A DNA stretch of 64,000 nucleotides from Elioraea tepidiphila DSM 17972. Its GTDB lineage: Bacteria > Pseudomonadota > Alphaproteobacteria > Acetobacterales > Acetobacteraceae. A program made the position numbers and the translations under genes. Numbering within the stretch: the first letter of the stretch is position 1; every line of letters starts with the position of its first letter. Below are positions 20,677 through 35,613 of the stretch, piece by piece. The notes beneath the pieces are model-generated. The model was given only the letters and a program-made list of their open reading frames with translations. It had not been told where the DNA came from and did not search any database. Where the stretch lies: assembly GCF_000378465.1 (NCBI RefSeq), contig NZ_KB899911.1:186001-250000 (forward strand). Reading direction: 5' to 3'.

Positions 20677-21676
20677 GCCAGACCCGTCCACGATCTCCGA
20701 CCCCGCTGCCACCGTCCGCGCGATGGTGGCGGATCGCGACGCCGCCGGCCAGCGGCTCGACCGCTGGCTCGCCTCGGTGTTTCCGGAGCTGTCGCGCTCG
20801 CGCGTCAAGGCGCTGATCGAGGCCGGACAGGCGAGCCGCGACGGCGCGGTGACGCGCGATCCGTCCGAGCCGGTGCGCGAAGGCTCCACCTATCGCCTCG
20901 GCGTGCCCGCTCCGGCGCCGGCCGCGCCCGCGGGGCAGGCGATCCCGCTCGTGGTGCTCCACGAGGACGACGACCTGATCGTGATCGACAAGCCGGCCGG
21001 GCTGGTGGTCCATCCCGCCCCCGGCAACCCCGAGGGCACGCTGGTCAATGCGTTGATCGCGCATTGCGGCAACAGCCTGAAGGGAATCGGCGGCGAGGCC
21101 CGGCCCGGGATCGTGCACCGGCTCGACAAGGACACCTCGGGCGTGATGGTGGCGGCCAAGACCGAGCGGGCGCACCACGCGCTGTCGGCGGCCTTCGCGC
21201 GGCGCGACCTGGAGCGCTCTTATCTCGCCCTGGTCTGGGGCGTGCCCGCGCCCGCCGAGGGGCGGATCGAGGCGCCGATCGGCCGCCATCCGGTGGACCG
21301 CAAGCGCATGGCGGTGGTGCCGCGCGGCAAGCCGGCCGCGACGCGCTACCGCGTGCTGCGGGCCTTCGGCACGGCGGCCGCGCTGCTGGACTGTCGGCTG
21401 GAGACCGGGCGGACGCACCAGATTCGCGTCCATCTCGCCCATCTCGGTCACCCGCTGGTCGGCGATCCGGCCTATCTGCGGCGCCTGCCGGCGGCGGCGC
21501 GCGCGCTCGACCCGACACTGCGCGCGGCACTCACCGGCTTCCCCCGCCAGGCCCTGCATGCGGCCAGCCTGGGCTTCACCCACCCCGCGACCGGGGCGAG
21601 GCTTCGCTTCGACTCGCCCCTGCCGCCGGACATCGCCGCACTGCTGTCACGGCTCGGTGATGGGCGCGACGAATGA
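20675..21676 (+). CDS. rluD: RluA/RluD-family 23S rRNA pseudouridine synthase
   Basis: Converts uridines to pseudouridine in 23S rRNA (helix 69 for RluD). 333 residues from ATG 20675. An N-terminal S4 RNA-binding domain (QRLDRWLASVFPELSRSRVK) is followed by the catalytic domain with VIDKPAGLVVHPAPGN and the active-site Asp151 in GIVHRLDKDTSGVMV. TGRTHQIRVHLAHLGHPLVG is also standard. The ATG at 20675 interlocks with the opposite-strand start at 20676 (CATG), so the in-frame ATG at 20723 (MVADRDAAGQRLDRW, 317 residues) may be the true start. No strong ribosome-binding site decides between them. Confidence 0.92.
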   Translation: MPDPSTISDPAATVRAMVADRDAAGQRLDRWLASVFPELSRSRVKALIEAGQASRDGAVTRDPSEPVREGSTYRLGVPAPAPAAPAGQAIPLVVLHEDDDLIVIDKPAGLVVHPAPGNPEGTLVNALIAHCGNSLKGIGGEARPGIVHRLDKDTSGVMVAAKTERAHHALSAAFARRDLERSYLALVWGVPAPAEGRIEAPIGRHPVDRKRMAVVPRGKPAATRYRVLRAFGTAAALLDCRLETGRTHQIRVHLAHLGHPLVGDPAYLRRLPAAARALDPTLRAALTGFPRQALHAASLGFTHPATGARLRFDSPLPPDIAALLSRLGDGRDE

Positions 21677-21680
21677 TCCA

Positions 21681-21704
21681 AATCAGGACCAGGATGGTCC
21701 GGTT
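21681..21704. promoter_or_regulatory. Palindromic motif upstream of rpoH, similar to the suf operator
   Basis: AATCAGGACC (21681-21690), five bases, then GGTCCGGTTT form an imperfect palindrome (8 of 10 symmetric). The left half is identical to the half-site of the perfect palindrome before the Rrf2 gene at 33642-33672 (AATCAGGAC). It may be a binding site for the same Fe-S regulator, or a hairpin ending the rluD transcript; no uridine tract follows immediately, only GGTTTTGCTT. Confidence 0.45.
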
Positions 21705-21745
21705 TTGCTTGCGAAGCCGTGCAGGTTTGGGGCAGGATGTCGCCG

Positions 21746-21772
21746 TTGGCACTCTAAGGGAGAGAGTGCCAT
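21746..21772. promoter_or_regulatory. CIRCE element (HrcA operator) upstream of rpoH
   Basis: TTGGCACTC (21746-21754), exactly nine bases, then GAGTGCCAT (21764-21772). This matches the CIRCE consensus TTAGCACTC-N9-GAGTGCTAA in geometry and in 15 of 18 arm positions, with the G/C change at the third position compensated on both arms. CIRCE is the binding site of the heat-shock repressor HrcA, known from groESL and dnaK promoters. It lies 129 bases before the rpoH ATG and implies HrcA control of sigma-32 synthesis. Confidence 0.8.
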
Positions 21773-21900: not shown

Positions 21901-22791
21901 ATGGCAACGTCCTACGCGATCCCTGTCGCACCGGAAGGGAACCTCACCCGGTATCTTCAGGAGATCCGGAAGTTCCCCATGCTGTCGCCGGAGGAGGAGA
22001 GCGCGCTCGCCCGCCGCTGGCGCGACGAGGGCGATCTCGAGGCCGCGCACAAGCTGGTCACCAGCCATTTGCGGCTCGTGGCGAAGATCGCCATGGGCTA
22101 TCGCGGCTACGGGCTGCCGGTGGGCGAGCTGATCTCCGAGGGCAATGTCGGCATGATGCAGGCGGTGAAGCGGTTCGATCCGGACCGCGGATTCCGCCTC
22201 GCCACCTACGCCATGTGGTGGATTCGCGCCGCCATCCAGGAATACATCCTGCACTCCTGGTCGCTCGTGAAGATGGGTACCACGGCGGCGCAGAAGAAGC
22301 TGTTCTTCAACCTGCGCCGGCTGAAGGGCCAGATGCAGGCGATCGACGACGGCGACCTGAAGCCCGAGCAGGTGGCGAAGATCGCGCGCGCGCTCGATGT
22401 GCCCGAGCAGGACGTGATCTCGATGAACCGACGGCTCGCGGCCCCGGACCACAGCCTCAACGCGCCGGTGCGCGCCGAGAGCGAGGGCGAGTGGCAGGAC
22501 TGGCTGATGGACGAGTCCGAGAGCCAGGAGGAGACGCTCGCCGAGGCCGAGGACATGGGCCAGCGCAAGGCGCTGCTGAACAGGGCGCTCGGCACGCTGA
22601 ACGAGCGCGAGCGGCACATCTTCATCGAGCGCCGCCTGAAGGACGAGCCGACCACGCTCGAGGACCTCTCGCAGCAATACGGCATCAGCCGCGAGCGCGT
22701 GCGCCAGATCGAGGTGCGCGCCTTCGAGAAGGTCCAGAAGAGCATGAAGGCCCAGATGGCGGAGCGCCGCGCGGGGGCCGCCGTCACCTGA
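21901..22791 (+). CDS. rpoH: RNA polymerase heat-shock sigma factor RpoH (sigma-32)
   Basis: Directs RNA polymerase to heat-shock promoters. 296 residues. Region 2 is seen in LVTSHLRLVAKIAMGYRGYG, then FDPDRGFRLATYAMWWIRAA. The RpoH box QKKLFFNLRR, which separates RpoH from other sigma factors, is present. The region 4 HTH is LEDLSQQYGISRERVRQIE. ATG 21901 follows GAGAGGTCC. A CIRCE element lies upstream, and a 22-base perfect palindrome follows directly after the stop. A separate membrane protein/pseudokinase pair converges from downstream. Confidence 0.97.
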   Translation: MATSYAIPVAPEGNLTRYLQEIRKFPMLSPEEESALARRWRDEGDLEAAHKLVTSHLRLVAKIAMGYRGYGLPVGELISEGNVGMMQAVKRFDPDRGFRLATYAMWWIRAAIQEYILHSWSLVKMGTTAAQKKLFFNLRRLKGQMQAIDDGDLKPEQVAKIARALDVPEQDVISMNRRLAAPDHSLNAPVRAESEGEWQDWLMDESESQEETLAEAEDMGQRKALLNRALGTLNERERHIFIERRLKDEPTTLEDLSQQYGISRERVRQIEVRAFEKVQKSMKAQMAERRAGAAVT

Positions 22792-33613: not shown

Positions 33614-33672
33614 TTGACATTCGCGACTCGTGGGCGCATCTCGCAATCAGGACCAAGGCCGTCCTGATTGCG
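33614..33672 (+). promoter_or_regulatory. suf promoter and perfect-palindrome operator
   Basis: A consensus -35 TTGACA is at 33614-33619; the matching -10 is poor (CATCTC at 17-base spacing), which suggests a regulated promoter. Immediately downstream is a perfect palindrome: CGCAATCAGGAC (33642-33653), seven bases, GTCCTGATTGCG (33661-33672). It would cover the transcription start and lies 11 bases before the Rrf2 GTG start, so autorepression by the Rrf2 protein is the natural reading. Confidence 0.7.
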
Positions 33673-33683
33673 TGGAGAGCGCC

Positions 33684-34136
33684 GTGTTCAGGTTGTCCAA
33701 GCTCAGCGATTACGCGGTGGTGGTGCTCAGCGAGCTCGGCCGGACGGCGGATGGCGCCGTGCGCAACGCCTCGGGCCTCGCGACCGCGACCGGCATCGCC
33801 GAGCCGACCGTCGCCAAGGTGCTGAAGCTGCTCGCCTCGGGCGGGCTGGTGACCAGCCAGCGCGGGGCCTATGGCGGGTATCGCCTGGCCCGGCCGCTCA
33901 GCGCCATCCCGATCGCGGACGTGATCGCGGCGATCGAGGGGCCGATCGCGCTGACCGCCTGCGTGGACGGCCATGTGGGCAGTTGCGAGGTGGAGTGCTC
34001 CTGCCCCGTGCGCGGCCGCTGGGACCCCGTGAACAGCGCGATCCGCCGCGCGCTCTCCGAGATCACGCTCGCCGACATGGCCTGCCCGGCCTGGGCCTTG
34101 CCCGCGACGGCGCGCCTCGCCGAGCCGGTCGTTTGA
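33684..34136 (+). CDS. Rrf2-family Fe-S cluster-sensing regulator of the SUF operon
   Basis: A 150-residue winged-helix regulator heading the suf operon, related to IscR/SufR. DNA-binding part: [20 protein letters not shown], then [20 protein letters not shown] and the wing [13 protein letters not shown]. Four cysteines cluster at Cys93, Cys101, Cys105 and Cys107 ([18 protein letters not shown]), suited to binding an iron-sulfur cluster. The start is GTG 33684, with GGAG at 33674-33677; an upstream ATG at 33630 would read through the operator and is rejected. It probably represses suf when its cluster is intact (inference from the family). Confidence 0.88.

Positions 34137-34155: not shown

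Positions 34156-35613
<1,458 letters not shown>

Follow-up and report, generated by a model that had tools for sequence, protein, structure and literature searches.

The heat-shock sigma factor gene rpoH is preceded by a predicted HrcA operator and by a second palindrome shared with the suf operon

Introduction

Heat-shock circuits built on the HrcA repressor and those built on the sigma-32 activator are usually described as parallel. The stretch of DNA analysed here (64 kb, referred to as the window) raises the question of whether the two are joined, as an inverted repeat resembling CIRCE, the operator of HrcA, lies upstream of rpoH, the gene for sigma-32. A first-pass annotation of the window had proposed that HrcA governs rpoH, with the two systems in series. 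By comparing sequences we find this reading supported, with HrcA binding and the serial order as its predicted elements, and conclude that rpoH is probably repressed by HrcA and perhaps by an Fe-S regulator also. The features on which the argument depends are listed in Table 1.

Table 1. Features of the rpoH and suf regions, in positions of the window
Feature	Position	Strand	Sequence or evidence
RluD-type pseudouridine synthase, 3' part	20800..21676	+	HRLDKDTSG motif; family named from sequence
Palindrome, predicted operator of the suf Rrf2-family regulator	21681..21705	+	AATCAGGAC-CAGGATG-GTCCGGTTT; two genomic sites at <=2 mismatches
Probable rpoH promoter	21708..21738	+	CTTGCG (-35-like, 21708-21713), CAGGAT (-10-like, 21733-21738); phylogenetic footprint only
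CIRCE (predicted HrcA operator)	21746..21772	+	Arms 21746-21754 and 21764-21772; 9-base spacer
rpoH, heat-shock sigma factor sigma-32 (296 aa)	21901..22791	+	TIGR02392, 375.7 bits; PRK06596, 409.6 bits
Perfect palindrome before the suf regulator	33645..33669	+	AATCAGGAC-CAAGGCC-GTCCTGATT; also conserved upstream of the orthologue in relatives
Rrf2-family SUF system Fe-S assembly regulator	33684..34136	+	TIGR02944, 128.3 bits (cut-off 110.65); GTG start assumed
sufB, first structural gene of the suf operon	34156..35613	+	PRK11814, 928.5 bits

The CIRCE element and the rpoH promoter

The product of rpoH clears the curated TIGR02392 equivalog cut-off (375.7 vs 323.1 bits), and its closest named relatives are found in the Acetobacteraceae and Roseomonadaceae. 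Upstream and in the same direction lies an RluD-type gene (stop at 21676, rpoH ATG at 21901), and CIRCE is located in the gap between them with rpoH as the sole gene downstream, 128 nt from its start codon. The element reads TTGGCACTC TAAGGGAGA GAGTGCCAT, which differs from the strict consensus TTAGCACTC-N9-GAGTGCTAA at three positions, or at just one, a T in place of A at the very end, once the frequent R/Y variation at arm position 3 is permitted. The A-to-G and T-to-C changes in the arms are symmetric, as the first-pass annotation had noted in describing a compensated change, while the outermost pair is a non-complementary T/T. The site is thus a 9-N9-9 inverted repeat that fits the consensus in the promoter or leader region of a heat-shock gene, as expected of a CIRCE. 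The window has no other CIRCE-like site, and no matches were obtained in 100 dinucleotide shuffles of that sequence, bearing out the close resemblance to the HrcA operator reported previously. The element was also considered as a terminator for rluD and rejected, as no T run follows it.

A search of the sequence upstream of rpoH for sigma-70 promoters matching at least 9 of 12 positions was negative. A phylogenetic footprint (TCGGTTTTnCTTGC) occurs at the same place in many Acetobacteraceae and marks the probable promoter, and from the spacing of its -35- and -10-like boxes the transcription start would probably fall roughly at 21746, where CIRCE begins. Since the footprint is seen both with and without CIRCE, a promoter already in place seems to have gained the element, or to have lost it. 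Several lineages have a TTGAC -35 box 30 to 40 nt upstream of their rpoH CIRCE, which places the element at about +1 in those genomes. We consider it very probable that 21746-21772 is an HrcA operator sited where transcription from the main rpoH promoter begins and limits that transcription, having counted against this reading the loss of the site in three congeners, its 128-nt spacing from the gene and the lack of a recognised strong sigma-70 promoter.

In Bacillus, HrcA is kept active by GroEL. In unstressed cells, HrcA held active by this chaperonin would occupy CIRCE and hold down transcription of rpoH, as at groESL, most simply by occluding RNA polymerase. Heat or protein misfolding would then inactivate HrcA, leading to direct derepression of groESL and, via rpoH, to a rise in the sigma-32 regulon.

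HrcA and its predicted regulon

The genome (G000, 4.3 Mb) encodes a single intact hrcA in an open frame (G000:C6:10566-11234; PF01628, 192.7 bits), as the first-pass proposal requires. The genome-wide scan that it had called for returned two CIRCE sites at up to three mismatches, one before rpoH and one before groESL, with no control matches and no convincing site at a third locus. The two sites together with the intact repressor gene therefore define a predicted HrcA regulon comprising groESL and rpoH. An hrcA gene was likewise found in ten of the 11 tested genomes with CIRCE before rpoH; the assembly of the eleventh is 84% complete. At groESL, the present genome has a single CIRCE (up to three mismatches) as opposed to pairs of sites ~64 nt apart, probably at groESL, in many members of the family (L008, L016, L017, L019, L023, L024). 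Perfect or near-perfect CIRCE elements located off the rpoH contigs were also noted in the relatives L005 (G023:C4:5761), L021 (G012:C119:19199), L020 (G016:C39:4) and L022 (G020:C236:45743).

CIRCE-controlled rpoH is not new as a wiring, having been predicted in 2004 for Geobacter sulfurreducens, in which CIRCE precedes rpoH at position -51 (Rodionov et al. 2004, PMC545781, Table 8). As in the present genome, the same operator stands at the same sigma-factor gene and also at groESL, but the Geobacter site is a perfect TTAGCACTC-N9-GAGTGCTAA at -51, and a further CIRCE is found at hrcA-grpE-dnaKJ (PMC545781). In our genome the distance to the start codon is 128 nt, and no third CIRCE locus was found. 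In Bradyrhizobium, Rhizobium and Agrobacterium the same repressor family and operator are found at groESL, as here; the accessible portions of these reports place CIRCE at groESL and mention none at rpoH (PMC3989490, PMC3557214). We found no report of CIRCE at an alphaproteobacterial rpoH in the searchable literature, the coverage of which leaves out most subscription journals.

A second palindrome shared by rpoH and suf

A second palindrome, absent from the first-pass annotation, is located 40 nt upstream of CIRCE (21681-21705). It resembles the perfect palindrome directly upstream of the Rrf2-family SUF regulator, a gene followed by sufB, from which it differs at one of 18 specified bases on the better strand and at two on the other. 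These are the only two copies (AATCAGGAC-N7-GTCC) in the genome at up to two mismatches, the next-best site being no closer to the suf palindrome than three. The regulator belongs to TIGR02944 and fails the IscR cut-off (58.1 vs 207.55 bits). In relatives, GGAC-N7-GTCC precedes the orthologous suf regulator. Of 397 genomes of the family, 50, spanning 25 genera, also have it upstream of rpoH at the corresponding position (control 0). When the two palindromes were compared for covariation, both rpoH and suf had this core in the genus under study and in many relatives. In the Roseomonas group the palindromes are CCGAC-N7-GTCGG at rpoH vs GGAC-N7-GTCC at suf, leaving the link between the two loci without support in that group.

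In relatives the palindrome often occupies the whole spacer between the two boxes of a TTGACA-N17-TATAA promoter of rpoH, with TAT at the -10 place in 40 of 48 rpoH sequences examined and a preceding TTGAC in those from outside the genus; within the genus it lies immediately upstream of the -35-like box. We regard as rather unlikely the alternative that 21681-21705 is the intrinsic terminator of the RluD-type gene. The palindrome does start 4 nt past the stop codon and was scored as terminator-like (GGACCAGGATGGTCC then GGTTTTGCTT), and the Roseomonas equivalent, CCGACT-N5-AGTCGG, is followed by TTTTTCTT, but a terminator sits uneasily with the near-identity to the suf operator over 18 specified bases when every other genomic site has at least three mismatches. 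In many relatives, moreover, GGAC-N7-GTCC lies inside the TTGACA/TATAA promoter without a T run; no more than 22 of 48 sequences have a Watson-Crick first spacer pair, and in the congeners G001, G003 and G004 the uninterrupted stem would amount to only four pairs.

On balance we favour a model in which rpoH of this family is gated by the suf Fe-S regulator via the palindrome within or next to its promoter and some lineages gained HrcA control at the start point as well, giving a joint output to Fe-S or iron stress and to chaperone shortage. In the present genome, the Rrf2-family regulator would probably act on the same rpoH promoter as HrcA through the adjoining upstream operator, and rpoH would answer to protein misfolding as well as to Fe-S or iron stress. 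This suf-type input is the more novel part of the proposal and also the less certain. The closest parallel is Caulobacter crescentus, in which IscR binds the rpoH region (PMC11475020) and rpoH is up 5-fold on iron limitation (PMC3751524). Both cases place an Rrf2-family Fe-S regulator at the regulatory region of an alphaproteobacterial rpoH, here by prediction, but GGAC-N7-GTCC is unlike the IscR motifs of Caulobacter (PMC11475020) and our regulator, a TIGR02944 member, scores far under the IscR cut-off. The suf-type palindrome next to CIRCE suggests that, throughout a bacterial family, an Fe-S signal feeds directly into the heat-shock response; such an input could account for a rise of the sigma-32 regulon under iron or oxidative stress.

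Conservation and recurrence of CIRCE before rpoH

The rpoH promoter block can be aligned across the rpoH regions of five congeners. CIRCE is present at the same place in the genome under study and in congener G006, and is missing from G001, G003 and G004, which have an intact hrcA, retain only left-arm remnants and form a separate well-supported group on the RpoH tree. The conservation among near relatives anticipated by the first-pass annotation was thus found in part, holding for G006 and other lineages and failing in three sampled congeners. In another genus of the family (G060, the same sequence as L081), CTGGCACTC-N9-GAGTGCCAA lies at an unchanged distance from rpoH. Comparison of the sites in the present genome, G006 and L081 indicates 16 to 18 of 18 identical arm positions and 3 to 5 of 9 identical spacer positions, the pattern of kept arms and free spacer expected for orthologous CIRCE elements. 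Three loci of related species (L036, L038, L041) retain a left-arm TGGCAG at the aligned position and no right arm, resembling a decayed site or half-site.

Recurrence was assessed by searching for a CIRCE core with the codons for the RpoH WWIR motif at a defined distance downstream of it, with reversed patterns as the control. CIRCE was identified before rpoH in 3 of 397 genomes of the family, in 13 of 385 sampled genomes of the class (8 families), and outside the class in four sampled genomes of family f184, the RpoH proteins of which are 41-43% identical to ours; the reversed control gave no matches in any of these sets. As the distance ranges were limited and an exact core was demanded, the counts are minimum values. 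Positions that the search pattern left free agree with CIRCE as well (T in 10/11; R, Y and A each in 11/11). The best CIRCE scores in a survey of 115 rpoH upstream regions were two-peaked, with 21 at 0-1 mismatch and the rest, bar one, at six or more, and on a tree of the 115 RpoH proteins the CIRCE label requires 10 changes, at least three of which are forced by well-supported branches. Spacing to the rpoH start codon is 128 nt in the genus under study and 32-71 nt in most other lineages. This patchy distribution, apparent already from the missing or decayed sites of the three congeners, fits repeated gain or loss. Recurrence of the element at rpoH in unrelated lineages would make the series arrangement an evolutionary move made several times, and pairs of close relatives, such as G006 and G001, would allow the effect of an rpoH CIRCE to be measured.

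The same patchiness, together with the loss or decay of the site in three congeners, would be compatible with CIRCE at rpoH being a decaying or inert copy and rpoH being mainly under leader RNA, sigma-32 stability and the upstream palindrome; a CIRCE is not necessarily dominant, as one report describes for one of the groESL operons of Rhizobium (PMC3989490). We consider an inert element improbable given that the arms are kept while spacer and flanks diverge between the present genome, G006 and L081, and that our element is intact bar one outermost base. A functional repeat might also work at the RNA level instead of as an operator in the DNA, forming a hairpin in the leader of rpoH that governs transcript stability or senses temperature. 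CIRCE hairpins influence mRNA stability in Bacillus, alphaproteobacterial rpoH genes are often under leader-RNA control, and a 9-pair hairpin of the repeat is predicted in our transcript, but it is the CIRCE sequence itself that is kept, beyond mere complementarity, and the Reyranella left arm TTAGCAGTC, conserved in 9/9 sequences, disrupts a pair. The leader had no match in an Rfam search, so that no ROSE-type thermosensor family was recognised, and its whole fold is only 1.8 sd better than shuffles, making a hairpin role for the repeat very improbable. Chance is a negligible explanation, even for an element with a base off the R/Y consensus (and it has only that one), because matches with at most one mismatch (R/Y allowed, base composition of the window) are expected at ~1.6e-7 in the rluD-rpoH gap and at 0.003 in the whole genome, and the site recurs before rpoH across many lineages with zero control matches.

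Two variations were noted among the more distant sites. A TATAAT-like box lies 3' of CIRCE instead of 5' in three of the four f184 genomes (L214-L217). In the Reyranella group (L096, L108, L112-L115, L151-L153), the left arm is always the asymmetric TTAGCAGTC and the right arm is the normal GAGTGCTAA.
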